Positions 49,991-64,000 of a DNA stretch of 64,000 nucleotides are shown here, in pieces. The notes beneath the pieces are model-generated. The model searched no databases and was not told the DNA's origin. It saw only the letters and a program-made list of their open reading frames with translations. The stretch spans positions 124,001-188,000 of the forward strand of contig NZ_JACHGN010000020.1 of the NCBI RefSeq assembly GCF_014202315.1, written 5' to 3'. This DNA comes from Thermocatellispora tengchongensis (GTDB lineage Bacteria; Actinomycetota; Actinomycetes; Streptosporangiales; Streptosporangiaceae). Position 1 is the first letter of the stretch, and each line of letters opens with the position of its first letter. A program made the translations under genes and the position numbers.

Positions 49991-50710
49991 TCAGCGGGGC
50001 GCGGGCTTCTTGCGGGCGCGGCGGTCGGGCACGGGGGAGCGGCCGGCGGCGTGGTCGGCGAACGCGTCGGCGGCCTTGCCAGCGTCGCCGTCGCGCAGCA
50101 GCGAGACCAGGCGCCCGTGCTCGTCGGCCATCGCCCGCCAGTCACCCTCGAAGAGGGGGTCGGCGATGGCGCGCAGCGCGCGCAGGTTCGGTTCGAGGAC
50201 CTCCCACATGCGGGTCAGGAACGGGTTTCCGGCGATCTGGACGACCCGGGTGTGGAAGGCGATGTCGGCGTCGCGGAACTTGCCGACGTCGTTGACCGCC
50301 ACTGCCCGGTGCATCTGGTCCACCAGCTCCCCGAGCTCGCCGAGCTGCTCGTCGGTGATGCGTTCTGCGGCCATCGTGGCGGCCAGCCGTTCGAGCGGCT
50401 CGCGCACCTGGCGGGCGTGTTCGGCGTCCTGGGCGGAGATCTCGACGACGAAGTTGCCGCGCCGCGGCACGTGCACGAGCAGCCCTTCACGCGCGAGCTG
50501 CTTGACGGCTTCGCGAACCGGCGCTTGACTCACACCGAGGCGGCGTGCGATCTCCGACTCCACCACGCGGTCGTTCGGCGCGAGGTCGCCCTCGACGATG
50601 GCCTGGCGGAGCAGTTCGTACACCCGATCGGAGATCAGGGTGGGGCGAACCGAATCCTTGCTCGTGGCCAACCTGGAGGCGAAGTCACTCGCTTGCCGTG
50701 TCGATGCCAT
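49991..50710 (-). CDS. GntR-family regulator (FCD) of the fucoside regulon
   Basis: A 239-residue FadR-subfamily regulator. Winged helix: YELLRQAIVEGDLAPNDRVVESEIARRLGVSQAPVREAVKQLAREGLLVHVPRRGNFVV. FCD domain: DADIAFHTRVVQIAGNP and ADEHGRLVSLL. The ATG at 50710 follows GGGGAG. It is the last gene of the run amidohydrolase-esterase-GntR. The repeated word ATCG(C/G)(C/T)TATCGAT at 51776, 52704, 56455 and 57838 is the best operator candidate, and this is the only regulator encoded among those four sites. The effector is likely an acid of L-fucose breakdown such as L-fuconate (inference). Confidence 0.87.
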   Translation of the reverse strand: MASTRQASDFASRLATSKDSVRPTLISDRVYELLRQAIVEGDLAPNDRVVESEIARRLGVSQAPVREAVKQLAREGLLVHVPRRGNFVVEISAQDAEHARQVREPLERLAATMAAERITDEQLGELGELVDQMHRAVAVNDVGKFRDADIAFHTRVVQIAGNPFLTRMWEVLEPNLRALRAIADPLFEGDWRAMADEHGRLVSLLRDGDAGKAADAFADHAAGRSPVPDRRARKKPAPR

Positions 50711-50758: not shown

Positions 50759-51763
50759 TCATCGTTTAGCAGGTATCGATTGTGAATCGTTCAGGCGCCC
50801 GGCCAGCCATGCCAGCTTGACCACCTCGTGCTCGGGGCCGCCGCCCTCGTGGTCGTTGAACGGGTACACGCTGATGTGCTTGCCGGTCGCCGGCATCTCG
50901 CAGCGCGCTCCGTAGTGGTTGAACGCCGCGTACACGGTGGACGGCGGGCAGATGCGGTCCATCAGGCCGACCGAGAAGAGCGCCGGGGCCGTGGCCCGTC
51001 GGGCGAGGGTGGCGCCGTCGAAGTAGGACAGCGTGCGCATCACGGTGCCGGCGTGCCCGCGGTGGAGCTTGGCGTACCTGGTGATCTCCGCGTACGGCGG
51101 CTGGTCGGTGAACGTGGCGGCGCGCGGGAAGTCGCACAGGAACGGCACGTCGGGCATGACGGCCAGCAGGTCCGGGACGAGGCCGGCCACGGCGAGGGCG
51201 ATGCCGCCGCCCTGGCTGGTGCCGGTGACCGCGACCTTGGACGCGTCCACCGCCGGGTGGGCGCGGATCGCCGCCACCGCGCGCACCGCGTCGGTGTACA
51301 GGCGGCGGTAGTAGTACCGCTCCGGGTCGAGCACGCCGCGGGTGAGGAAGCCGGGCGCCGCGACGTCGCCGGTCGCGGGGTGGGGGTCGGGCGTCTCGGT
51401 CCCCTGGCCGCGGGTGTCCATGACGAAGTGCGCGTAGCCGGCGCACGCCCACAGCCGCTTCTCGTGGGGCACGCCGCGCCCGCTGCCGTACCCCAGGTAC
51501 TCCACGACGGCGGGCAGCGGGCCGGTCCTGGTCACCGGCAGGTGCAGCCATCCCCGGACGGGGTGGCCGCCGAAGCCGGCGAACGTGACGTCGAAGGTGT
51601 CGATCGTCGCCAGCCCGTTCGCCACCGGCTCGGCCGTCGTCGCCAGGCCGAAGCCGTCGTTCTCGGCGAGCGTCTTCGCCCAGAACGCGTCGAGATCCGC
51701 CGGCTCCGGCAGGGCCGGCAGGTACTGCTCGAGCCGGTCCTGGGGGAGGTCGAATTGCGCCAT
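50759..51763 (-). CDS. Acetylxylan esterase / cephalosporin-C deacetylase family (CE7)
   Basis: A 334-residue CE7 esterase. It starts MAQFDLPQDRLEQYLP and keeps the family's RGQG motif (DTRGQGTETPDP), the nucleophile elbow GTSQGGGIA, the acid in GLMDRICPPST and the His in NDHEGGGPEH. No signal peptide, so it removes acetyl groups from imported oligosaccharides or small acetylated substrates in the cytoplasm. In this cluster the target may be acetylated fucosides (inference). An operator-like word overlaps its upstream region (51776-51788) and the stop codon of the preceding gene. Confidence 0.88.
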   Translation of the reverse strand: MAQFDLPQDRLEQYLPALPEPADLDAFWAKTLAENDGFGLATTAEPVANGLATIDTFDVTFAGFGGHPVRGWLHLPVTRTGPLPAVVEYLGYGSGRGVPHEKRLWACAGYAHFVMDTRGQGTETPDPHPATGDVAAPGFLTRGVLDPERYYYRRLYTDAVRAVAAIRAHPAVDASKVAVTGTSQGGGIALAVAGLVPDLLAVMPDVPFLCDFPRAATFTDQPPYAEITRYAKLHRGHAGTVMRTLSYFDGATLARRATAPALFSVGLMDRICPPSTVYAAFNHYGARCEMPATGKHISVYPFNDHEGGGPEHEVVKLAWLAGRLNDSQSIPAKR

Positions 51764-51775
51764 CGTCCACCAATC

Positions 51776-51788
51776 ATCGCTTATCGAT
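51776..51788. promoter_or_regulatory. Fucoside operator, copy 1
   Basis: ATCGCTTATCGAT, 12 bp before the esterase start and overlapping the amidohydrolase stop codon. Matches the consensus ATCG(C/G)(C/T)TATCGAT. Confidence 0.6.
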
Positions 51789-52641
51789 CAGAGCATCGAA
51801 GCAAGGGCTCCGGACCGTTGTCAACCGGAGCCGCCAGGCCGTAGACGCGCTCGGCGGTCGTGCGCAGCACGCGCAGGCGCTCGGCGTCGCTCAGCGCGGC
51901 CAGCCCGCGCCGCGCGAGCCGCAGCGACTCGCCCCGCGATCCCCGGGGCAGGCAGATCGGCCAGTCGGAGCCGATCACGCACCGGTCCGGGCCGAACGCC
52001 TCGGCCGCGTACGCGACCAGGTCTGCCACCCGCTCCTCCGGCACGCCGTGCTGCTGGGTGAGCAGGCCGGAGATCTTCATGATCACGTTCGGTACGCGGG
52101 CCGCCCGCCGCACCTGCTCGCGCCACTCGCCCGGGTCGGCGGTGCCGAGGTTCGCGGGGTTGCCGAGGTGGTCCACGATCACGGTCAGCGCGGGATGCCG
52201 GGCGGCGACCTCGGCGGCCACCCGGACGGCGGCGTGGTGGAGGTTGAGTCCGAGCGCCACGCCGAGACCGGCCAGCGTGGGGACGAGCGACCGGGCCGAG
52301 GGCGGCGTGGCGTCCCAGGACGCCCCGCCGAGGCGCATCCCGTTCGGGCGTGTCTGTGCCAGGAACTCCGCGAAGCGCGCCGGGCCGAGGCCGGCGCAGG
52401 AGTTGAGGTTGCCGACGTGGCCGGCGATCAGGTCCGGGTGGCGCAGGCGCAGGTCGCGCAGCAGCACGTTCTCGCCGCGGTCGCCGCGAGAGGACTCGAC
52501 CAGGATGGTGCCGGTCAGCTCCAGGTCCGCGCCCGACTCGGCCAGGTCCTCGGCGGTGAACGTCCGGTGGTACGGCGTCCCCGGCCGGATCCAGGGATAT
52601 CCGCCATCGAGATCCCACAGGTGGGCATGGCAGTCGATCAC
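51781..52641 (-). CDS. Amidohydrolase (L-fuconolactonase-like)
   Basis: A 286-residue amidohydrolase-2 (TIM-barrel) protein. The metal/active-site start DCHAHLWD, EGSR-like LVESSRGDRGEN, the central VIVDHLGN and the late IGSDWPICLP are typical of the group containing L-fuconolactonase and 2-pyrone-4,6-dicarboxylate lactonase. With a fucosidase and an L-fucose dehydrogenase-like reductase in the cluster, opening of L-fucono-lactone to L-fuconate is the best fit. The GTG at 52641 has GGAGACGAC in front; an in-frame GTG at 52674 would add 11 residues but lacks a site. Divergent from the 630-residue gene across operator copy 2. Confidence 0.82.
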   Translation of the reverse strand: MIDCHAHLWDLDGGYPWIRPGTPYHRTFTAEDLAESGADLELTGTILVESSRGDRGENVLLRDLRLRHPDLIAGHVGNLNSCAGLGPARFAEFLAQTRPNGMRLGGASWDATPPSARSLVPTLAGLGVALGLNLHHAAVRVAAEVAARHPALTVIVDHLGNPANLGTADPGEWREQVRRAARVPNVIMKISGLLTQQHGVPEERVADLVAYAAEAFGPDRCVIGSDWPICLPRGSRGESLRLARRGLAALSDAERLRVLRTTAERVYGLAAPVDNGPEPLLRCSDR

Positions 52642-52703
52642 GTCGTCTCCACGGGGTTTCTCGTGTATTGACACACCGATTGGGGCTTATGAAGATTCTA
52701 GTC

Positions 52704-52716
52704 ATCGGCTATCGAT
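52704..52716. promoter_or_regulatory. Fucoside operator, copy 2
   Basis: ATCGGCTATCGAT in the divergent gap between the amidohydrolase and the 630-residue gene. Only 17 bp precede the + strand ATG, so it may overlap that promoter. Confidence 0.65.
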
Positions 52717-52733
52717 GAACGATTGGTGTTCGC

Positions 52734-54626
52734 ATGCACATCTCACACCCGCCGGCAGTGCGGGCGAGCCGCGTCCTGACGTCCCCGCCACGGTGGGCGG
52801 GCCTGCAACGGGAGCTGTTCGCCGCTCAGGACAAGGCGTGGCGGATCTTCTCCGACCGCTACACCGAGGGCGACGGGCGGCTGGTGTTCCGCGACACGCT
52901 GGGGCAGGGGCTCGACGGCCGCGACGGCGTGGACGACTTCTACGAGGCGTTCTTCAACTGGCCGACCCTCTACCTGCTCGGCGGCAGCGCGGACGTGCTC
53001 GCCGCGGCGCGCCGGCACTGGCGGGGAGTCACCCGCCAGTTGACGGAGATGGGCATGCTCGTGGACGGGTTCGAGCGCGGCTACGACTGGTTCCACCAGG
53101 GCGAGGGCATGCTGCTGTTCTACGGGCTCTGCATGGCCGAACCGGACGACGGCGAGCTCAGGGAGCTCGCCGGGCGCTTCGCCGACCTCTACCTGCCCGG
53201 CGGACCCAACTACGACCCCGGGCACCGGATCATCCGGGCCCCGCACAACGGCGCCGCGGGGCCCCGCTGGGGCTTCAGCGACCACGACGTGTACTTCCCG
53301 TGGAGCCTGGCGCTGCGCCCGTACGGGCTGCCGCTCGACTGGATCGCCGAGGCCGCGCCCTTCGACGAGCTGGCCGCCGACCCCGAGCGGGCGCGCGCGT
53401 ACGGCCGGGTCATGTGGGACCGCATGGGACGCGGCGACACGATCGTCAACCTGGCCGCGACCGGCCTCGTCACCAACGCCTACCTTCTCGGCGGCGACCC
53501 GCGCCACGCCGCGTGGGTGGTGGAGTACACCGGCGCCTGGCGGGAGCGCCTGGACGGCCGCGAGGTCGTGCCGGACAACGCCGGGACGCACGGGATCGTG
53601 GGGGAGCACCTGGACGGCCGTTGGTACGGCGGGCACTACGGCTGGTCGTGGCCGCACGGGCTGCCGCCGGTGGGCACCGCGGCGATCGTCGGCGCGGTCA
53701 ACGCGACGCTGCTGACCGGCGACCGGTCGTACCTGGAGCTGGCGCGCAACCCCCTGGACGTGGTGCTCCGCCACGCCGCGCCGATGCGGCCCCGCGAGGT
53801 GTCCACGATCACCAAACGCTGGCGGCCCCACCTGCGCGGGCTGGAGGGCGAGCCGACCCTGCTGGCCCCGATGCGCCGCGACGACTCCGGCTGGTTCGAC
53901 CACAACGTCATGCCGACGCAGTTGCCCGTCGCCCTGTGGCAGTTCAGCCGGGACCCCGCCGACCGGGAGCGCATCGACCGGCTGCGCGTGGGGTCGAGCT
54001 GGGACTGGACGGCGGTGCACACCCAGCGGACCAAGGAGGAGTCGGGCCACGAGGAGCCCTGGTACGAGTACCTCGCCGGCCGCAACCCCGGCTTCCCCGA
54101 GCGCATGCTGCAAAGCGCCATCGACACCTGCGCCGAGCGGGTCGAGTCGATCGAGAACGACCCGGTGGACCCGGCCGTCGGCCCCGACGCGTTCGGCATC
54201 CACGACTGGCAGGACCGCAACCCGGTCGTCACCGAGGCGCTCCTGCAACTGACCACCGGCTCCCCGCAGGTGCTCTACAACGGCGGCCTGGCCCAGATGC
54301 ACGTGCGCCACTTCGACGCCGATCATCGCCGTCCCGGGCTGCCCCCCGGCGTGGCGGCGCTCGTCTCCGCCATCGACCCGGACCACACCGTGGTCGAGCT
54401 GGTCAACCTCGGCGCCGCGCCGTGCTCGCTCGTGGTGCAGGCCGGCGCGTTCGCCGAGCACCGCATCCACACCGTCCGCGCCGACGACGAGGCGCCCCGG
54501 CCGGTCGAGGGGCCGTACGTCGGCGTGCGGCTGCCGGGCGCGACGCAGGTGCGGCTGACGCTGACCATGACGCTCCGCGCCGGGAGACCCACCTACGCGG
54601 CCCCGCCGTGGGAGATCGCGCGATGA
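52734..54626 (+). CDS. Uncharacterised 630-residue protein of the fucoside cluster
   Basis: I do not recognise a named family with confidence. The protein is soluble, without signal peptide, Trp- and His-rich and mostly helical, with segments such as YDWFHQGEGMLLFYGLCMAEP, WGFSDHDVYFPWSLALRPYG, DGRWYGGHYGWSWPHGLPPVG and EESGHEEPWYEYLAGRNPGFPERML, followed by a C-terminal beta-rich ~90 residues. Repeated helical aromatic hairpins and the C-terminal beta part resemble (alpha/alpha)-barrel glycoside hydrolases or lyases, so a sugar-active enzyme is likely (inference). Its stop overlaps the aldo/keto reductase ATG, and operator copy 2 lies just upstream, so it belongs to the regulon. No clear ribosome-binding site precedes the ATG; leaderless translation is possible. 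Confidence 0.6.
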   Translation: MHISHPPAVRASRVLTSPPRWAGLQRELFAAQDKAWRIFSDRYTEGDGRLVFRDTLGQGLDGRDGVDDFYEAFFNWPTLYLLGGSADVLAAARRHWRGVTRQLTEMGMLVDGFERGYDWFHQGEGMLLFYGLCMAEPDDGELRELAGRFADLYLPGGPNYDPGHRIIRAPHNGAAGPRWGFSDHDVYFPWSLALRPYGLPLDWIAEAAPFDELAADPERARAYGRVMWDRMGRGDTIVNLAATGLVTNAYLLGGDPRHAAWVVEYTGAWRERLDGREVVPDNAGTHGIVGEHLDGRWYGGHYGWSWPHGLPPVGTAAIVGAVNATLLTGDRSYLELARNPLDVVLRHAAPMRPREVSTITKRWRPHLRGLEGEPTLLAPMRRDDSGWFDHNVMPTQLPVALWQFSRDPADRERIDRLRVGSSWDWTAVHTQRTKEESGHEEPWYEYLAGRNPGFPERMLQSAIDTCAERVESIENDPVDPAVGPDAFGIHDWQDRNPVVTEALLQLTTGSPQVLYNGGLAQMHVRHFDADHRRPGLPPGVAALVSAIDPDHTVVELVNLGAAPCSLVVQAGAFAEHRIHTVRADDEAPRPVEGPYVGVRLPGATQVRLTLTMTLRAGRPTYAAPPWEIAR

Positions 54627-55528
54627 CCGTCGTCCTGCCCCGGCTGGGCCTCGGCACCGCCCCCATCGGCAACCTCTTCCGCGAGGTGAGCGAGGAGGAC
54701 GCCGCCGCCACGGTGGCCGCGGCCGCCCGCGAGGGCCTCACGTACTTCGACACCGCGCCGCGCTACGGCCACGGGCTGGCCGAGGACCGGCTCGGCCGGG
54801 CCATCGAGACCGCGGGCGTCGCCGAGCCGGTGATCTCGACCAAGGCCGGCTGGCTGCTGCGGCCGGGGGAGCGGGTCGTGACCGACTGGACCGAGCGCGG
54901 CATCCGCGAGTCGCTGGAGTCGAGCCTGCGGCGGCTGCGCCGCCCGGCCGTCGACATCCTGTACCTGCACGACCCGGACGACTTCGCCGACGAGGTCCGC
55001 CGTACCGGCTATCCCGCGGCGCGCAGGCTCCGCGAGGAAGGTCTGGCCGGGGCCGTCGGATTCGGTATGAACCACTGCGAACCGCTGGCGGCGTACGTGG
55101 CCGAGTTCGAGGTGGACGTGGTCCTCATCGCCGGACGGTTCTCGCTGCTCGACCACGACGCGCTGACGACCCTGCTGCCGCTGTGCCTGAAGACCGGCAC
55201 GGCGGTGGTCGTGGGCGGGGTGTTCAACACCGGCCTGCTGGCCGACCCCCGTCCCGGCGCCATGTTCCACTATCGCGAGGCACCCGCCGGCGTTCTCGCC
55301 CGCGCGCAGCGGTGCCGCGCGGTCTGCGCCGAGTTCGGGGTTCCGCTCGCGGCGGCGGCGATCCGGTTCCCCTACCTGCATCCGGCCGTACGCTCCGTCG
55401 TGGTCGGCTGCCGGTCGGCGGACGAGGTGAGCCGGAACGCGGAGTCGGCGCGGACGGAGATCCCGCCGGAGCTGTGGCACCGCCTCGCCGAGGAGGGCTT
55501 CGTCCCGCCGGAACTGCTGGAGGCGTAG
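54623..55528 (+). CDS. Aldo/keto reductase (L-fucose/D-threo-aldose 1-dehydrogenase-like)
   Basis: A 301-residue aldo/keto reductase. The catalytic tetrad is visible: Asp and Tyr in FDTAPRYGHGLAEDRLG, Lys in VISTKAGWLL and His in ILYLHDPDD. The GLGTAPIGNLF start and GGVFNTGLLADP segment resemble D-threo-aldose 1-dehydrogenase/L-fucose dehydrogenase, which oxidises L-fucose at C1 to the lactone. That reaction fits between GH29 and the lactonase of this cluster. The start overlaps the 630-residue gene stop (ATGA), and a strong hairpin follows. Confidence 0.85.
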   Translation: MTVVLPRLGLGTAPIGNLFREVSEEDAAATVAAAAREGLTYFDTAPRYGHGLAEDRLGRAIETAGVAEPVISTKAGWLLRPGERVVTDWTERGIRESLESSLRRLRRPAVDILYLHDPDDFADEVRRTGYPAARRLREEGLAGAVGFGMNHCEPLAAYVAEFEVDVVLIAGRFSLLDHDALTTLLPLCLKTGTAVVVGGVFNTGLLADPRPGAMFHYREAPAGVLARAQRCRAVCAEFGVPLAAAAIRFPYLHPAVRSVVVGCRSADEVSRNAESARTEIPPELWHRLAEEGFVPPELLEA

Positions 55529-55567
55529 AAGACCCGCCGGGCGGCCACGCGTCGCCCGGCGGGTCTT
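55529..55567. terminator. Bidirectional hairpin terminator
   Basis: Perfect 15-bp arms, AAGACCCGCCGGGCG at 55529-55543 and its complement at 55553-55567, 9-base loop, between the convergent reductase (+) and RraA-like (-) genes. The AA/TT ends resemble classical terminator tails on both strands. Confidence 0.85.
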
Positions 55568-55581
55568 GCGTCCGGGGCCCG

Positions 55582-56424
55582 TCAGCCCGCGTCGCGGGCG
55601 GCGAGGTACTCCTCCAGGCCGGCCCCGGTCAGCGGGTAGTAGTCGGACAGCCGGCCGCCCTCGTCCAGACGGCGGCGGGCGAACTCCTCGCGGTCCTGGT
55701 GCAGCAGGGAGTCCTCGGCCAGCGCCAGGGCGCTGCGCTGCGGCACGACGACCGCCCCGTCCTCGTCGGCGACGATGAGATCGCCGGGTGTCACCAGCGC
55801 GCCGCCCACCCCGACCGGGACGTTGAAGGCCGAGGGGAACAGCTCCGTCTGCGAGGCGTAGTGCGGCGTCACGCCGGTGCACCAGATCGGCACGCCCAGG
55901 GCGCGCACCCGCGCGGCGTCGCGCACCCGGCCGTCGACCACGATGCCCGCGCCGCCGCGCAGCTTGAAGTAGCGGACCAGCATGTCGCCGAGGCAGCCGG
56001 TGAAGTGGCTGGCCTGGGCCGACACGACGAGCACGTCGCCCGGCCTGATCGACTCCAGCACCGCCCACAGCGCGGTCTTGCGCTCGGCGTCCTCCTGCTC
56101 GCCGCCGGAGAAGACGTCCTCGCGCTGCGGCAGGAACTGCAGCGTCACCGCGCCCCCGGTGATCCGCACGTCGGGCTCCCGGTGCAGCGGCACGGGGCCG
56201 TCGATGAAGGTGCGGGTGATGCCCATCTGGTGGAGCTTGGCGCAGGCGGTGGCCGCGCTCACGCCGGCGAGCGCCTCCACCATGCGAGCGGCCGGCCGGA
56301 CGAAGGGCGAGGACTGCGCCGGCCCCAGCATCGTCTCGTACGTCTCCGTCCCTCTCTCTGGTTCCGTCCCCGTCTCTGGCTCCGTCTCCGGCTCCGTCTC
56401 CGCGCCGTGCCCGTTCGTGTTCAT
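55582..56424 (-). CDS. RraA/4-hydroxy-4-methyl-2-oxoglutarate aldolase family protein
   Basis: A 280-residue RraA-fold protein. The core keeps the family features: GDVLVVSAQASHFTGCLGDMLVRYFKLRGGAGIVVDGRVRD (Gly-Asp loop and the conserved Arg-Asp pair) and GDLIVADEDGAVVVP. These Mg-dependent proteins include class II pyruvate aldolases and decarboxylases. In a non-phosphorylating fucose route such a member could cleave or process a keto-deoxy acid (inference). The N-terminus contains a Glu-Thr-Glu-Pro repeat coded by a pyrimidine-rich stretch (56341-56400), an odd flexible tail. The ATG at 56424 has a GGTGAGG site; the frame extends upstream through the operator and is rejected there. Confidence 0.82.
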   Translation of the reverse strand: MNTNGHGAETEPETEPETGTEPERGTETYETMLGPAQSSPFVRPAARMVEALAGVSAATACAKLHQMGITRTFIDGPVPLHREPDVRITGGAVTLQFLPQREDVFSGGEQEDAERKTALWAVLESIRPGDVLVVSAQASHFTGCLGDMLVRYFKLRGGAGIVVDGRVRDAARVRALGVPIWCTGVTPHYASQTELFPSAFNVPVGVGGALVTPGDLIVADEDGAVVVPQRSALALAEDSLLHQDREEFARRRLDEGGRLSDYYPLTGAGLEEYLAARDAG

Positions 56425-56454: not shown

Positions 56455-56467
56455 ATCGCCTATCGAT
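56455..56467. promoter_or_regulatory. Fucoside operator, copy 3
   Basis: ATCGCCTATCGAT between the divergent RraA-like and GH29 genes, ~30 bp from the first and ~54 bp from the second start. Confidence 0.65.
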
Positions 56468-56520
56468 GGTAGATGTAACTGCCGACCGGCGAGGGCTGTC
56501 AACCGTGGGAGGAGACGCCA

Positions 56521-57780
56521 GTGTCAGCTAGGTCGACCCAGTGGTTCGAGGCGGCGCGGTTCGGATTGTTCGTCCACTTCGAGCTCTACAGCCTCGCCGC
56601 CCGGCACGAGTGGGTGCGCAGCCGCGAGGCGATGCCGGACGCCGACTACGACCGCTACCTGGAGCGGTTCGATCCCGATCTGTTCGACGCCGCGGCGCTG
56701 GCCAGGGCGGCGCGCGACGCCGGGATGCGTTACGCGGTGCTGACCGCCAAGCACCACGACGGCTTCTGCCTGTTCGATTCCGAGCTGACCGGCTACACCT
56801 CGGCCCGGGTGGCCGGGCGGGACCTGGTGGCCGAGTTCGCCGAGGCGATGCGGGCGGAGGGGCTGCGGGTGGGCCTGTACTACTCGCTGCTGGACTGGCG
56901 GCACCCCGACTTCACCATCGACCGCTACCACCCGCTGCGCGACAGCGTGCCGCCGGAGGAGGCCGCCGGGCGCGACATGGCGCGCTACCGCGCGTACATG
57001 CACGGGCAGGTGCGGGAGCTGCTCACCGGCTACGGCCCCATCGACCTGCTGTTCTTCGACTTCACGTACGCGGAGAAGGGGCCCGCCGACTGGGGCGCGG
57101 AGGAGCTGATGGCGATGGTCCGCGACCTCCAGCCGCGGATCATCGTCAACGACCGCCTCGGCATCCCGGGCGACTACGTCACGCCGGAGCAGTACCAGCC
57201 CGACCGGCCGCTCACCAGGGACGGCGCCGAGGTCATGTGGGAGGCGTGCCACACGCTCAACGGCTCGTGGGGGTACGACCGCGACAACCACGACTACAAG
57301 GATCCGGCCCTGCTGGTGCGGATGCTCGTGCAGTCGGTCGCCTGCGGCGGCAATCTGCTGCTCAACGTCGGGCCCACGGGACGGGGCGCGCTGGAGCCGC
57401 GGGCCGCGCACACGCTGCGCGCGATCGGCGCGTGGACGTCCCTGCACGCGCGGACCGTGCACGGCGCCGGTCCGAGCGCGTTCGAGGCCCCGCCGAACAC
57501 CCTCTACACCCAGCGGGGCGACCGCCTCTACCTCCACCTGCTCACCTGGCCGCTCAAGCACGTCCACCTGCCCGGCCTCGCCGGGCGCGTACGGTACGCG
57601 CAACTGCTGCACGACGGCTCGGAGGTGCGCTTCCACGAGCTGGACGGCGGCGACCACGAGCACAACAACCTCGCCCCGCCCGGCCGGCCGCCGGGGACGC
57701 TCACCCTGACCCTGCCCGTCGTCCAGCCGGAGGTGACGCTCCCGGTGGTCGAGCTGGTGTTGCGCGACGAGGGGCGCTGA
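56521..57780 (+). CDS. GH29 alpha-L-fucosidase
   Basis: A 419-residue GH29 enzyme without signal peptide. Family landmarks: WFEAARFGLFVHFELYS, YAVLTAKHHDGFCLFDSELT, GLYYSLLDWRHPDF, the nucleophile segment IDLLFFDFTYAEKG (Asp180 likely) and ACGGNLLLNVGPTGRGALEPRA. It removes alpha-linked L-fucose from imported oligosaccharides. GTG start at 56521 with GGGAGGAGA. It is divergent from the RraA-like gene, and the fucoside importer follows ~270 bp downstream. GH29 members differ in linkage preference, which cannot be read here. Confidence 0.92.
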   Translation: MSARSTQWFEAARFGLFVHFELYSLAARHEWVRSREAMPDADYDRYLERFDPDLFDAAALARAARDAGMRYAVLTAKHHDGFCLFDSELTGYTSARVAGRDLVAEFAEAMRAEGLRVGLYYSLLDWRHPDFTIDRYHPLRDSVPPEEAAGRDMARYRAYMHGQVRELLTGYGPIDLLFFDFTYAEKGPADWGAEELMAMVRDLQPRIIVNDRLGIPGDYVTPEQYQPDRPLTRDGAEVMWEACHTLNGSWGYDRDNHDYKDPALLVRMLVQSVACGGNLLLNVGPTGRGALEPRAAHTLRAIGAWTSLHARTVHGAGPSAFEAPPNTLYTQRGDRLYLHLLTWPLKHVHLPGLAGRVRYAQLLHDGSEVRFHELDGGDHEHNNLAPPGRPPGTLTLTLPVVQPEVTLPVVELVLRDEGR

Positions 57781-57810: not shown

Positions 57811-57855
57811 TTGAACAAGTGAGGTCGGCGAAATAACATCGCCTATCGATAGGCG
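57811..57855. promoter_or_regulatory. ABC-operon promoter with fucoside operator copy 4
   Basis: A -35 TTGAAC (57811-57816) and -10 TAACAT (57834-57839) are 17 bp apart. The operator ATCGCCTATCGAT (57838-57850) overlaps the -10 and lies within the perfect 16-bp palindrome CGCCTATCGATAGGCG (57840-57855). The layout is that of a repressor site. A ~200-nt leader without other recognisable signals follows to the gene at 58051. Confidence 0.65.
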
Positions 57856-58050: not shown

Positions 58051-59295
58051 ATGAACAGGTGGCGATTGCTGGCGGCCGCGGCGACGGCCCTGGTGTTATC
58101 GGCGACGACGGCGTGTGGCGGCGCCGGCGGCACAGGCGGCGAGCCCGGAAAGACCACGCTGCGCATGATCGTCAATATCACCCCCAACCTCACGGAACAG
58201 TTCTGGACCGGGCTGTTCGACCTCTACGAGGCCAAGAACCCGGGCGTGACGGTGCAACTGGAGCTCACCGGCACGATCGAGGCGGAGGCCAAGCTGCGGC
58301 AGGACCTGGCCGCCGGCGACCCGCCGGACATCGCGCAGCACGTGGTGCCCACCCCGGAGACGGCCGAGCTCTTCGTCGACCTGTCCGGGGAGGCGTGGGC
58401 GGCCAAGACCCCGCTGTACGAGGAGTACGCCATCGGCGGCAAGCACTACGTCGTCGGTGTCGGCGAACAGATCCAGTCGCTGGTCTTCTACAACAAGAAG
58501 GCCTTCGCCGAAGCCGGCGTGGATGCCACGAAGATCCGCACGATCGCCCAGTTCGAAGAGGCGATGGGCAAGCTCAAGAAGGCCGGCTACGTGCCGTTGC
58601 AGACGGCCGGCCAGTGGGTCACCGGGGCGCAGTTCACCATGCTCGCCGATGCCGGTGTGCTCACCGCGGACCCCGAGTGGACGGTCAAACGCAAGAAGGG
58701 CCAGACGACGTTCGCCGGCAGCGGCTACATGCGCTACTACCAGCTGTACGAGTCGTGGCTCGACAAGGGGTTCATCGACAAGAGCTCGCTCGGGCTCCAG
58801 TACCCCGACGGCCAGGCCGCCTTCCTCAAGGGCGACTCGGCCATGTACATCATGGGCTCGTACTTCGTGCCGGCGGCGGACGATGCGGGCAAGAGCGACG
58901 ACATCGGGGTCTTCCCGGTGCCGTCCGACGGCGCCTACCCGCCCGGCCAGTTCGGCAACATGGCGCAGCCGTACACGGTGGTCGGCCAGTCCGAGAACCG
59001 GGAGGCGGCGATCGACCTGGTCGAGTGGCTGGTGACCGACGAGGAAGCCATCAAGATCCAGCTCGCGGCCGACGGCAACCTGCGCAAGGGGTTCGCCTAC
59101 GACGTCTCCAGCCTCGGAGACGGCGTGCAGGCGATCCTCGACGAGGCGCCGTTCGTGATCGTCAAGCAGGGCGAGCGCCAGCCGGTTCAGGGCTACGCCG
59201 AGGAACTGAACACGCGGATCCAGTCCCTGTTCACGGGCTCCTCGGCCGGTGACGTCGCGACGAAGCTGGATCAGTGGTGGGACTCGCAGGGCTGA
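58051..59295 (+). CDS. Sugar ABC transporter substrate-binding lipoprotein
   Basis: A 414-residue family-1 solute-binding protein. Lipoprotein signal with ATTACGG (Cys22), then the mature domain TTLRMIVNITPNLTEQFWTGLFDLYEAKNPGVTVQLELTG and late MYIMGSYFVPAADDAGKSDDIGVFPVP. It probably binds fucosylated oligosaccharides or L-fucosides, judged by its neighbours and shared operator. AGAGG precedes the ATG. The first permease overlaps its 3' end by 22 bp. Confidence 0.88.
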   Translation: MNRWRLLAAAATALVLSATTACGGAGGTGGEPGKTTLRMIVNITPNLTEQFWTGLFDLYEAKNPGVTVQLELTGTIEAEAKLRQDLAAGDPPDIAQHVVPTPETAELFVDLSGEAWAAKTPLYEEYAIGGKHYVVGVGEQIQSLVFYNKKAFAEAGVDATKIRTIAQFEEAMGKLKKAGYVPLQTAGQWVTGAQFTMLADAGVLTADPEWTVKRKKGQTTFAGSGYMRYYQLYESWLDKGFIDKSSLGLQYPDGQAAFLKGDSAMYIMGSYFVPAADDAGKSDDIGVFPVPSDGAYPPGQFGNMAQPYTVVGQSENREAAIDLVEWLVTDEEAIKIQLAADGNLRKGFAYDVSSLGDGVQAILDEAPFVIVKQGERQPVQGYAEELNTRIQSLFTGSSAGDVATKLDQWWDSQG

Positions 59296-60236
59296 GCGCG
59301 GACCCGGTGCGGACGCCCGCACCGGGTCCCGAATCCGGCCGCCGGACGCCCACCGGCCGGCGCCGCCGCTTCCGTGGCGCGGCGGTGAGCGCGGGCATGC
59401 TCGCCCCGGCCGTCGTGGTGTACACCGTCATGACCATCGTCCCGGTCATCGTCGCGGTGTACCTGAGCCTCACCGACTGGAACGGCTTCTCGACGGCGAC
59501 GTTCATCGGCCTGGAGAACTACGCGCGCCTGTTCGACGACCCCGACACCACCCGGGCCGGGCTGGTGACCTTGGTGGTGGCCTTCTTCGGGGCCGTGGGG
59601 ATGCTCGGGCTCGGCCTGGTCTACGCCCTGCAGCTCAAGGAGAGGCGCTGGTCCAACTCCTTCTTCCGTACGCTCGCGTACTACCCGCACGTCATCAGCG
59701 CGCTCATCCTGGGCTTTCTGTGGAGCGCCATCCTCGGCACCAACGGCGCGATCAACAACACCCTCCGCGATCTCGGGATCGGCCCCGTCGGCTTCCTCTT
59801 CGACGAGAACCTGGCCGTGATCACCCTGGTGGGCGTCATCGTGTGGGCGGGATTCGGCTTCAACGTGGTGTTGTTCGTCGCCGGCCTGCAGACCGTGCCG
59901 CGCGAGCTCATCGAGGCCGCGCAGATCGACGGCGCGTCACAGCGGCAGATCAACCGCCGGATCGTCATCCCGATGATCTCACCGGTGGTCACCGTGGCCA
60001 TGGTGCTCAACCTCGTCGGACTGATCAAGGTGTACGACATCGTCGTCAGCCTCACCGACGGCGGTCCGGCCGGGTCCACCGAGACCATCGCCTACTTGAT
60101 CCTCAGCCGGTCGTTCGCCGGCACGGACGTCGGGTTCGCCACCGCCCAGGCCGTGGGGCTGATGGTGGTGTCCGCGGCGCTCTCGGTCGTCGTCACCGCC
60201 CTGCGGAACCGGCAGGACCGGGCGGCGGCGAGCTAG
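59274..60236 (+). CDS. ABC sugar permease (MalF type)
   Basis: A 320-residue permease with about six membrane helices and the coupling motif ELIEAAQIDGASQRQINRRIVIPMISP. The N-terminal extension is basic and Pro-rich. GTG at 59274 overlaps the binding-protein gene; GTG at 59307 in the same frame is an alternative start without overlap. Confidence 0.87.
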   Translation: MVGLAGLSADPVRTPAPGPESGRRTPTGRRRRFRGAAVSAGMLAPAVVVYTVMTIVPVIVAVYLSLTDWNGFSTATFIGLENYARLFDDPDTTRAGLVTLVVAFFGAVGMLGLGLVYALQLKERRWSNSFFRTLAYYPHVISALILGFLWSAILGTNGAINNTLRDLGIGPVGFLFDENLAVITLVGVIVWAGFGFNVVLFVAGLQTVPRELIEAAQIDGASQRQINRRIVIPMISPVVTVAMVLNLVGLIKVYDIVVSLTDGGPAGSTETIAYLILSRSFAGTDVGFATAQAVGLMVVSAALSVVVTALRNRQDRAAAS

Positions 60237-60253
60237 CCACCCCAGGAGCACCC

Positions 60254-61225
60254 ATGAGCCTGAACATCTTCGGCGGCGCCGCCCGCGCCGTCCGGCCGGC
60301 GTCGCAGCCGCCGGCCGACACACCGGCCGATGCACATGCCGATACACCGGCCGATCCGCCTGCGGGGCAGCAGGCCGACGCGCCGCGGGCCAGGCGCCGG
60401 CGCCCGTCGCCGATCCGCATCGCGCTGCTGACGCTGCTGTTCGTCGTCATGACGGCGCCGGTCTACCTTCTGCTGGTCAACAGCTTCAAGTCGCAGCAGG
60501 ACATCCAGAACAGCCCGTTCTCGTTGCCGCTGACCAGGATCTCGCTGGAGTACCTCGAAGCCGCGATCCACAGCCCGCAGTACAACGTGCTGCGGAGTTA
60601 CGGCTTCACGCTCCTTCTGGTCGTGTCCGTCGACATCCTGTGCATCCTGTTCGCCGGACCGGCCGCCTACGTGATCGCGCGCAGCCTCAAGCGGCGCACC
60701 CAGATCCTGTTGCTGTTCTTCCTCGCCGGCACCTTCATCCCCTCGGCGGCCCTCATCGTGCCGCTGATCTACGTGCTGCGCGCCATCGGGCTGGGGAACA
60801 CCGTGACCGGGCTGATCCTGCACGACGTCGCCATGACGCTGCCGGTGAGCATCTTCCTGTTCGTCGGCTTCATCCGCACCGTCCCCCGGGACATCGACCA
60901 CGCCGCCGCGATCGACGGAGCCGGCCGGCTGCGAACGTACTGGCAGGTCATCTTCCCCCTGACGCGCCCGGCCGTCGTCACGGTGCTGATCCTCAACTCC
61001 ATCGGCATCTGGAACGACTTCATCAGCCCGCAGATCCTGTTGAGCCCCGGGTCCGGCAACTACACGGTCACCACCGCCATCTACGCCGGCATCAGCCAGT
61101 ACTCGACCGACATGACCAAGGTCTTCCCCAACCTCCTGCTGGCCGTGGCACCGGTGATCATCTTCTTCATCTACATGCAGCGTCACATCATCAGCGGGCT
61201 GACGGTCGGCGCGATCAAGGGCTGA
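60254..61225 (+). CDS. ABC sugar permease (MalG type)
   Basis: A 323-residue permease, coupling motif RDIDHAAAIDGAGRLRTYWQVIFPLTRPAV, ending SGLTVGAIKG. The cytoplasmic N-terminus has a PADTPADAHADTPADPPA repeat before the first helix. CAGGAGCACCC precedes the ATG. As in the other importer, no ATPase gene is present. Confidence 0.89.
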   Translation: MSLNIFGGAARAVRPASQPPADTPADAHADTPADPPAGQQADAPRARRRRPSPIRIALLTLLFVVMTAPVYLLLVNSFKSQQDIQNSPFSLPLTRISLEYLEAAIHSPQYNVLRSYGFTLLLVVSVDILCILFAGPAAYVIARSLKRRTQILLLFFLAGTFIPSAALIVPLIYVLRAIGLGNTVTGLILHDVAMTLPVSIFLFVGFIRTVPRDIDHAAAIDGAGRLRTYWQVIFPLTRPAVVTVLILNSIGIWNDFISPQILLSPGSGNYTVTTAIYAGISQYSTDMTKVFPNLLLAVAPVIIFFIYMQRHIISGLTVGAIKG

Positions 61226-61306: not shown

Positions 61307-64000
61307 ATGAAACGACGGCTGCGAGCCACATTGGTGGCTTGCCTCCTCCTCGCGGCAACGCCCGCGGTGGCGCAGGCCGAGACCGCGTCAGGGCAACCCG
61401 GAGCGGTGCTCTATGTCGCGCCCGACGGGAACGACTCGAACAAAGGGACGAGAGGCAAACCCCTTCGCACGCTCGAAGGGGCCAGGGACGCGATCAGGGA
61501 ACTGAAGGCCCGCCGTGGCCTGCCCCCCAGGGGAGTGACCGTCTACCTGCGGGAAGGGACCTACGAACGCACCGCGTCGTTCGCCCTGGACCGGCAGGAC
61601 TCCGGCACGGCCAAGGCGCCGGTCGTCTACCGCTCCTACCCCGGGGAGACCGCCCGGCTCACCGGCGGACGGCGGTTGGACCACGACAGCTTCACCCCCG
61701 TGACCGACGACGCCGTGCTGCGGCGGATCATCGACGAGCCGGCGCGCGGCAAGGTCCTCCAGGCCGACCTGGCGGCCCTGGGCATCACCGACTACGGGCA
61801 GCAGAGCCGCCACGGTTACTGGAAGGCCAACGACGTCAGCCTCGTGCCGCCCATGGAGCTCTACGTGGCGGGCCAGGGCATGACCCTCGCCCGGTGGCCG
61901 AACCGCGGCACGGTCCAGATGGGCGAGATCATCGACGCCGGGCCCACCGTGAAGGACCCCGACCTGCAGGATCGCGGCGGCACGTTCGGCTACACCTACG
62001 ACCGGCCGCGGTACTGGACCCAGGCCGAGGACATCTGGCTGGACGGCATCTTCGGCTACAGCTGGGAGTGGTCGTACAACAAGATCGCCTCGATCGACAC
62101 CGAGGCGAAGCGGATCACCCTGCGGTACGGCGAGATGTCCGGGCTCATGAAGACCTGGTACCCCGACTTCCATTTCGCCACGAACCTGCTGGAGGAGCTC
62201 GACGCGCCGGGCGAGTACTACATCGACCGCAAGAAGGGCGTGCTGTACCTGGTGCCCAACGCCGCCTTCCGCGGCAGGCAGGGCGACGTCACCGTCACCA
62301 TGCTCAAGGAGCCGATGATCCGGGCCACCAACGTCTCGCACGTCTCCTTCAGGGAACTGGTGATGGAGTACGGGCGGAGCCTGCCCGCCGTCATCCTCGG
62401 CGGCAACGACGTCACCATCGAGCGCAGCGACATCCAGAACTTCGCCGACGGCGGCGTGTACATCAACTCGTCGGGCCGGTACGTCTACGACGGCATCCCG
62501 GACAAGGGGAAGGGCCGGAACCACGCCGTCGTGTCCTCCACCATCCGCCACGTCGGCGGCGTGGGCGTCGTCCTCAACGGCGGCGACGAGAAGACCCTGG
62601 AGCCGGGCGGCAACCGCGTGGAGAATTCCCACATCCACGACTTCGCCTACTACCACAAGGCATACAACCCGGGCGTGATGTTCGACGGCGTGGGAAACCA
62701 GGCTCGCGGCAACGAGATTCACGACGCGCCGCACCCGGGCATCATCGTCCACGGGAACGATCACTTGATCGAGTACAACGAGATCTACGACATCTGCAAG
62801 GACTTCCAGGACCTCGGCGCCATCTACATGAACGCCGGCATGACGCCGCACGAGCGGGGCACCGTGATCCGGCGCAACTACTTCCACCACATCGGCGAAG
62901 GACGGGGCGGTGTCGAGGGCGTCTACGCGGACAACCTCACGATGGGCCTGACCATCGACGAGAACGTCTTCTACCGGATGGGCAACGACGCCATCAAGAG
63001 CGGCTCCGGTGACCACATCAAGGCCAGGAACAACATCTTCGTCGACACCCACGTCCCCTACGACAACTACGAGATGTGGATGGGCGACCAGCCGGGCAAC
63101 ACGGTGGACAAGAACTACATGCCGGCCTGGAAGAAGCTGTTCGAGGAGAACAACGGGTTCGTCGGCACGCCGTACGCGAAGAAGTATCCCGAGCTGCTGA
63201 CCTTCTTCGAGGAGAACCACTACTACCCGGCGAACAACTTCTTCGAGCGGAACCTGGTCTGGAACCCCGAGGTCGGCAGGGCCGCGAGCGTGAACGAGCA
63301 CGGCGCGCGAGACGTCAAGAACCTGCTCAACTACGCCGGCAACTGGGTCGCGGATCGAAACCCCGGATTCGCCGACTGGAAGGCCGGAGACTTCTCCCTG
63401 ACCGAGGACGCCGAGGTCTTCGACCGCATTCCCGGATTCACGGCCATCCCGTTCGACCGGATCGGCACCCAAGGCAAGATCGGGCTGCCCCACGGGCCGG
63501 ACCACATCGAGCTGACGGGCCTCCACCTTCCCGATGACAAGCTCACCGTCCAGCTCGGCCGGACCGTGTCCTTCCCCGCCGAGCCGGTGCCGTGGAACGC
63601 CACGGACCAGGCGGTGACGTACACGAGCGGCGACACCTCGGTCGCCACCGTCGACGGCGACGGCTCGATCACCGCGCTGGCACCGGGCGAGACGACCATC
63701 TCGGTGGTGTCCAAGGCCGATCCGAAGATCGCCGACGAGGCCACCGTCACCGTGGCCGAGGGTGACGGCATCATGCACGCCACCGATTTCGAGTCCGGCG
63801 GCAACGGCTGGCCCGTGGACCCCAACCGCAGCATCGTGGCCGACGGCTCCGGCAACCACTGGTACCGGATCGTCAACGGCGCCAACGGGCTGCTCGACCG
63901 CACCTTCACCGACTACGCGCTGGACTACCGGCTCAAGACCCCGGCGCAGGTGCCCGACGGCGCCGTCCTGATCATGTACGACCGCCACACCCCGACCGGC
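61307..64000 (+). CDS. Secreted right-handed beta-helix protein with BIG2 domain (GH141-like?), 3' end outside the window
   Basis: The frame is open from the ATG at 61307 to the end (898 codons, no stop), so the gene is partial. Order: signal peptide (1-25, ending AVAQAE); an N-terminal block typical of secreted beta-helix glycosidases (VLYVAPDGNDSNKGTRGKPLRTLEGARDAI, VTVYLREGTYERTASFAL, ARLTGGRRL); parallel beta-helix repeats (~340-620, e.g. NRVENSHIHDFAYY, NHLIEYNEIYDICKDFQDLGAIYMNAG); a BIG2-like domain (~740-820, TYTSGDTSVATVDGDGSITALAPGETTISVV); then the start of another beta domain. The N-terminal pattern resembles GH141, which includes alpha-L-fucosidases and xylanases, and fits the fucoside cluster. 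It follows the permease by ~80 bp with GGAAAGG upstream. Confidence 0.8.
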   Translation, partial: MKRRLRATLVACLLLAATPAVAQAETASGQPGAVLYVAPDGNDSNKGTRGKPLRTLEGARDAIRELKARRGLPPRGVTVYLREGTYERTASFALDRQDSGTAKAPVVYRSYPGETARLTGGRRLDHDSFTPVTDDAVLRRIIDEPARGKVLQADLAALGITDYGQQSRHGYWKANDVSLVPPMELYVAGQGMTLARWPNRGTVQMGEIIDAGPTVKDPDLQDRGGTFGYTYDRPRYWTQAEDIWLDGIFGYSWEWSYNKIASIDTEAKRITLRYGEMSGLMKTWYPDFHFATNLLEELDAPGEYYIDRKKGVLYLVPNAAFRGRQGDVTVTMLKEPMIRATNVSHVSFRELVMEYGRSLPAVILGGNDVTIERSDIQNFADGGVYINSSGRYVYDGIPDKGKGRNHAVVSSTIRHVGGVGVVLNGGDEKTLEPGGNRVENSHIHDFAYYHKAYNPGVMFDGVGNQARGNEIHDAPHPGIIVHGNDHLIEYNEIYDICKDFQDLGAIYMNAGMTPHERGTVIRRNYFHHIGEGRGGVEGVYADNLTMGLTIDENVFYRMGNDAIKSGSGDHIKARNNIFVDTHVPYDNYEMWMGDQPGNTVDKNYMPAWKKLFEENNGFVGTPYAKKYPELLTFFEENHYYPANNFFERNLVWNPEVGRAASVNEHGARDVKNLLNYAGNWVADRNPGFADWKAGDFSLTEDAEVFDRIPGFTAIPFDRIGTQGKIGLPHGPDHIELTGLHLPDDKLTVQLGRTVSFPAEPVPWNATDQAVTYTSGDTSVATVDGDGSITALAPGETTISVVSKADPKIADEATVTVAEGDGIMHATDFESGGNGWPVDPNRSIVADGSGNHWYRIVNGANGLLDRTFTDYALDYRLKTPAQVPDGAVLIMYDRHTPTG

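Follow-up and report, generated by a model that had tools for sequence, protein, structure and literature searches.

The described systems that come closest to the gene studied here, referred to as FAM, are enzymes with (alpha/alpha)6 barrels and the fucosyllactose utilisation locus of bifidobacteria. GH88 and GH105 enzymes have such a barrel with acidic residues on the second and third inner helices, as is predicted for FAM, and a GH88 gene is found within an importer operon in Rhizobium, as FAM is found with importers. FAM differs from both families in having a C-terminal beta-sandwich and, between residues 152 and 216, a long insertion. The alpha-L-fucosidases of GH95 and GH139 share with FAM the (alpha/alpha)6 barrel and C-terminal beta domain predicted for it and the fucoside context, whereas the N-terminal beta-sandwich of GH95 is missing in the FAM model. 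The AGE/cellobiose 2-epimerase superfamily has the same barrel fold. On the other hand, AGE epimerases need two catalytic His residues, while FAM has one invariant His and an extra C-terminal domain. In the bifidobacterial locus, a 6HUR-like binding protein and permeases stand beside a sugar-releasing position, as in FAM operons, and lactonase and mutarotase-type genes are common to both; FAM presumably occupies the place held by GH29/GH95 fucosidases in bifidobacteria.

The window is the whole 64,000-nt stretch of DNA that was analysed, and FAM lies in it among the following genes and operators:

49991..50710, minus strand, GntR/FCD regulator (Pfam search)
50759..51763, minus strand, AXE1-family acetyl esterase (Pfam PF05448, E 2e-101)
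51776..51790, no strand, operator upstream of AXE1
51781..52674, minus strand, amidohydrolase, L-fuconolactonase-like (NCBIfam NF052480, E 4e-27, below cut-off; PDB 4dlf group, E 4e-18)
52704..52718, no strand, operator ATCGGCTATCGATGA upstream of FAM, also within the promoter region of the amidohydrolase
52734..54626, plus strand, FAM, the gene under study (630 aa, open frame with ATG start), an unmodelled protein with a predicted (alpha/alpha)6 barrel
54623..55528, plus strand, aldo/keto reductase, AKR (Pfam; nearest PDB relatives L-galactose dehydrogenases)
55582..56424, minus strand, RraA-like protein (Pfam/NCBIfam and PDB searches)
56455..56469, no strand, operator between the RraA-like gene and GH29
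56521..57780, plus strand, GH29 alpha-L-fucosidase (Pfam; N-terminus without signal-peptide likeness by hydrophobicity)
57838..57852, no strand, operator upstream of the importer genes
58051..61225, plus strand, ABC sugar importer, binding protein and two permeases
61307..64000, plus strand, secreted right-handed beta-helix protein with Big_2 domain, extending beyond the window

The 630-residue ORF listed by the first-pass annotation at 52734-54626 proved to be a real gene: its frame is open, and as homologues from several phyla align with it end to end, it is far beyond chance. Its start codon is supported by the copies of N. gerenzanensis (L021, 87% identical) and N. indica (L025, 93%), whose ATG is at the same position. 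The ATG of the AKR gene, at 54623, overlaps the FAM stop by 4 nt, and the two genes overlap in 14 of the 15 loci that have AKR as the next gene, in agreement with the co-translation proposed earlier; FAM also overlaps rhaM in all 21 loci at which rhaM is next. By hydrophobicity, a signal-peptide-like N-terminus was absent from 125 of 126 family rows, the exception (L020) being a truncated fragment, and, judged from the sequence, FAM is probably intracellular. At L046:9998-12619, the FAM ORF has 874 aa, about 240 aa more than the others, which may be an extension, a fusion or a frame error.

The operator at 52704-52718, 30 bp upstream of FAM, is one of only four copies of ATCGNYTATCGATNR in the 11,649,915-base genome, every copy being in the FAM cluster, and the reversed control pattern had 0 matches in the same number of bases. 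With one mismatch allowed, 6 matches were found in the window against 0.03 expected. Since the pattern was built from the four cluster sites themselves, the test is its absence elsewhere and its conservation in other species; a shorter pattern was detected within 250 bp upstream of the FAM homologue in 15 of 18 same-clade loci and in none of the 108 other loci. These operators tie FAM to the GH29 and importer genes. Together with the GH29, fuconolactonase-like and L-galactose-dehydrogenase-like neighbours, they bear out two earlier statements, that an operator is present just upstream of FAM and that the gene belongs to a fucoside regulon, the evidence for which is strong in the window's clade. 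The GntR/FCD protein is the likely reader of the four operators.

By PDB sequence search, the nearest solved relatives of the window's AKR, the neighbour formerly called L-fucose dehydrogenase-like, are L-galactose dehydrogenases, which are plant enzymes. The 4dlf group, to which the amidohydrolase is closest among solved structures, is presumably the Burkholderia L-fucono-1,5-lactonase, with Hobbs 2013, which PMC12370193 cites, as the lactonase paper. In PDB, 5x15 ("putative transferase") matches the RraA-like protein very closely (E 5e-96), and RraA-like genes turned up as FAM neighbours in at least 12 of the 81 loci surveyed; this closeness and recurrence suggest a fuconate-pathway aldolase, possibly acting on 2-keto-3-deoxy acids. 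The AKR and RraA-like genes converge on a near-perfect inverted repeat with 12-nt arms (55534-55562), probably a terminator. The beta-helix/Big_2 protein forms the end of the importer operon.

FAM had been reported to fit no family, and none of the Pfam (E ≤ 10), NCBIfam (E ≤ 1) and PDB searches, the last with FAM as a single sequence, returned a match. An 18-member FAM set gave nothing in Pfam/NCBIfam beyond weak matches at E ≥ 0.02, confined to one or two of its sequences. Against PDB chains, the FAM profile found nothing but a maltose transacetylase at E 0.5, and the best PHROGs match (E 0.004) was to a family of unknown function. FAM was absent from the viral and phage collections searched, and no description of the family surfaced in literature titles and abstract openings, which does not prove that none exists. 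The protein is no orphan, though: while no model recognises it, it belongs to a broad, unmodelled family that spans actinobacteria, Chloroflexota, haloarchaea and alphaproteobacteria. A species-level genome collection contains at least 583 stretches that match it. In separate searches, FAM was found in 16 of 296 sampled actinobacterial genomes (its own counted), in 13 of 151 Chloroflexota genomes and on 17 plasmid records, among them 12 haloarchaeal and two alphaproteobacterial. The same genome carries a second copy with 54% identity (G000:C2:347987-349726, L162), in a paralogous operon of GntR, binding protein, permeases, the FAM paralogue, RraA-like and GH141-like genes, upstream of which an MR/MLE dehydratase gene is found.

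The AlphaFold2 model of FAM (pLDDT 92.1) consists of an (alpha/alpha)6 barrel and a C-terminal beta-sandwich, and together with the fold comparison it confirms, at the level of a prediction, the (alpha/alpha)-barrel with a C-terminal beta part that had been guessed; as in six-hairpin glycosidase-like folds, six hairpins close the predicted barrel. Conservation was examined in 126 rows from four lineages (FAM and 125 of the 171 matches, namely those of 480-760 aa after removal of identical cores), a few of which come from the same gene (L009/L020). The domains and motifs are as follows:

52785..54293, plus strand, predicted (alpha/alpha)6 barrel, residues about 18-520 (secondary structure and fold search on the predicted model)
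52923..52946, plus strand, motif D64-G-x-D67-D68-x-x-E71, first inner helix (123-125 of 126 rows per residue; G65 121)
53085..53105, plus strand, motif D118-x-x-H121-x-x-E124, second inner helix (D, H and E 126 of 126)
53436..53450, plus strand, motif D235-x-x-x-N239, third inner helix (D 126 of 126, N 123 of 126)
53622..53645, plus strand, loop W297-Y-G-G-H-Y302-G-W304 before the fourth inner helix (Y302, G303 and W304 126 of 126)
54303..54572, plus strand, predicted C-terminal beta-sandwich, residues about 524-613 (predicted model)

D118, H121, E124, D235, Y265, W269, Y302 and W304 are invariant in all 126 rows, and D64, D67, D68, E71, N159, D161 and R272 are changed in at most 3, gaps counted. 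In the model, the conserved motifs precede the inner helices, as the active site of this fold would. The acids of the invariant set may perform the chemistry, with D118, E124 and D235 as candidates. The earlier designation of FAM as an enzyme can be kept as what its fold, invariant residues and operon position together suggest.

Although the fold class is clear, none of its families can be singled out as the nearest; no relative was clearly above the others. The best Foldseek PDB matches of the whole chain, cellobiose 2-epimerases, GH127 and GH88, have E-values of about 1e-4 and low TM-scores, and the best E-values are those of the epimerases (7e-5 for the whole chain and 3e-5 for the barrel alone); GH127/GH146 were present among the Foldseek matches. 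VIA gave Z 15-16 to GH76, GH88, GH47 and AGE-type barrels/epimerases, all within about 1, and for the barrel folded alone Z 12.7-14.8 among the 50 matches listed, none of which stood out. GH95, GH127/GH146 and GH139 were not among the 50 matches listed in either VIA comparison, an absence that excludes nothing.

PF07470 (GH88/GH105) was neither matched by FAM at E ≤ 10 nor listed for the 18 members. GH95 (PF22124) and its N-terminal domain (PF14498) were matched by neither FAM nor the 18 members, with hhalign at 0.5% against GH95. The comparison with GH139 was made through its description in a paper and through the profile search of PDB chains, a set in which the presence of GH139 is uncertain. 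DUF2264/GH154 was rejected (PF10022 not matched, hhalign 1.7%). The profile comparisons with DUF2264, GH95 and GH88 were all weak, and so was one made with a single sequence. An ulvan oligosaccharide dehydratase, P29_PDnc, was set aside on its description rather than its sequence, as it is tied to PL37 in the part of PMC8511951 consulted. A role as the missing fuconate dehydratase was rejected as well, enolase-superfamily (MR/MLE) genes being found beside FAM in Chloroflexota and small actinobacterial genomes.

Neighbours were surveyed within six genes of FAM at 81 loci (80 loci from genome contigs and N. gerenzanensis); all counts are raw lower bounds without a random-locus baseline, as the genes were called with our own caller and many of the contigs stop short of the full flank. 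An ABC permease was detected in at least 72 of 81 loci, and in at least 53 immediately upstream of FAM on the same strand; a binding protein was near FAM in at least 67 and a GntR regulator in at least 65. Lactonase-like amidohydrolases (at least 43), rhaM-family mutarotases (at least 27) and AKRs (at least 25) were also found, with any of the three in at least 51 loci. GH29 was identified in at least 16 of 81 loci, GH95 in at least 6 and beta-helix (GH141-like) proteins in at least 34, any of them being present in at least 43. The labelled gene arrangements track the clades of a quick tree: the 7 groups need 7 changes, where shuffled labels need 37.9.

In a sister clade, FAM is placed after ABC importer genes, whose binding protein has 6HUR as its best solved match (E 4.9e-21; next 1.8e-12), the fucosyllactose-binding protein of B. 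infantis according to the part of PMC8106489 consulted. As a control, 6HUR was not among the best 60 of 126 matches of the window's own binding protein, which is closest to the chito-oligosaccharide protein NagB2. Some sister-clade operons continue with a zinc ADH, a KduD-like SDR, a KDPG aldolase and a KDG-kinase-like PfkB. In Streptomyces (L064, L070, L076, L083 and L095), FAM, rhaM, lactonase, zinc ADH, KduD-like SDR, KDPG aldolase and PfkB kinase genes occur together, and this set looks like a route from L-galactose, not L-fucose, to pyruvate. The anhydro-L-galactose pathway takes 2-keto-3-deoxy-L-galactonate to KDG and pyruvate, and by analogy the sister-clade set would do the same, while the window's set with its RraA-like protein would suit the cleavage of 6-deoxy L-fucose to pyruvate and lactaldehyde. 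FAM is common to both sets, beside the importer or in the regulon, and therefore its role would lie before the pathways split, most simply in sugar release.

An alternative is that FAM is active on uronides, as an unsaturated uronyl hydrolase like GH88/GH105 or as an exo-lyase, on uronic-acid residues found alongside fucose in polysaccharides of plants or microbes. At the 10 haloarchaeal loci fetched, out of 12 plasmid matches, annotated pectate lyases were found at 4 and GH28 at 2, along with MR/MLE enzymes at 5 and dihydrodipicolinate-synthase-type proteins at 5; these haloarchaeal copies (L022, L023, L105-L112) are on megaplasmids, several amid pectin/uronate genes. Since alphaproteobacterial copies are likewise in such loci, with kdgD near FAM in Asticcacaulis and Sphingobium, a uronide substrate is likely for at least part of the family, and substrates probably differ across it. 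GH88 structures rank with the best in the fold comparisons (2fv0, E 2e-4 by Foldseek with the barrel; 1vd5, Z 15.8 by VIA), and the KduD-like SDR, KDPG aldolase and KDG-kinase-like PfkB of the sister clade would fit uronide use. In aligned GH88 proteins, the second inner helix carries HD-x-G, seen in 8 of 10 rows, and the third carries D-x-x-x-N or a similar motif, where FAM has D118 and D235-x-x-x-N239; this correspondence with the GH88 catalytic Asp residues is by helix order, not residue alignment, and is suggestive only, as hhalign gave just 24% with one hairpin out of register. Genuine GH88 genes are present on 7 of the 11 FAM-bearing plasmids, so FAM is no simple GH88 replacement, and no uronate pathway genes were found in the window's regulon. 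Thus, of the fucoside or uronide activity first suggested, the fucoside context is supported here and the uronide option is kept alive by the haloarchaeal and alphaproteobacterial loci, although for FAM itself we consider it unlikely.

It is less probable still that FAM, with its AGE/cellobiose 2-epimerase type of barrel, is an epimerase, isomerase or similar enzyme which prepares free sugar for the AKR/lactonase route. The cellobiose 2-epimerases have the best Foldseek E-values, and a rhaM-family mutarotase and sugar-oxidising genes adjoin FAM; but the whole-chain TM-scores to epimerases are low (0.20-0.36 by query length), H121 is the single invariant His in 126 rows, and FAM holds the glycosidase position after the importer while the pathway genes change. 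There is also a slender chance that FAM frees fucose without being a fucosidase, by cleaving glycosyl-L-fucose disaccharides (with fucose at the reducing end) delivered by secreted GH141-like enzymes. BT1002, the founder of GH141, releases 2-O-methyl-xylosyl-fucose according to the part of PMC10154630 consulted, beta-helix (GH141-like) proteins were found near FAM in at least 34 of 81 loci, and at one locus (L045) the GH141_M domain is above cut-off. However, the link is by analogy, and a GH141 domain was not found in the window's beta-helix protein, unlike its relatives at some other FAM loci.

FAM represents a genuine, conserved, unmodelled enzyme-like family within a known fold superfamily. 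Our preferred reading, which we put at an even balance of probability, is that it works inside the cell as a carbohydrate-active enzyme, most probably a glycoside hydrolase, with imported L-fucose/L-galactose oligosaccharides as its substrates. Secreted enzymes would trim fucose-bearing glycans, of plants or others, and the ABC importer would take up short oligosaccharides, which AXE1 may deacetylate. FAM, with GH29 in this genome, would then cut them in the funnel that forms the active site of its barrel; the co-translated AKR would oxidise the freed L-fucose or L-galactose, and the lactonase would open the product. As an intracellular GH29 is already present in this genome, FAM need not be the fucosidase. 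With moderate confidence, we regard FAM as a good candidate founder of a new family of glycoside hydrolases. More tentatively, it may found a third lineage of L-fuco-configured glycosidases with an (alpha/alpha)6 barrel, beside GH95 and GH139. Such enzymes would be intracellular and importer-coupled, would lack the N-terminal beta domain, would use DxxHxxE and DxxxN in the active site, and in haloarchaea would have diversified to act on uronides; this we regard as possible but doubtful.

The operator unique to the cluster defines a regulon, so that the inducing sugar could be found directly. If the proposed role is true, hundreds of "hypothetical proteins" from soil actinomycetes, Chloroflexota and haloarchaea would become a testable carbohydrate-active enzyme family, and the missing intracellular step of fucose/L-galactose glycan use outside the gut would gain a gene.
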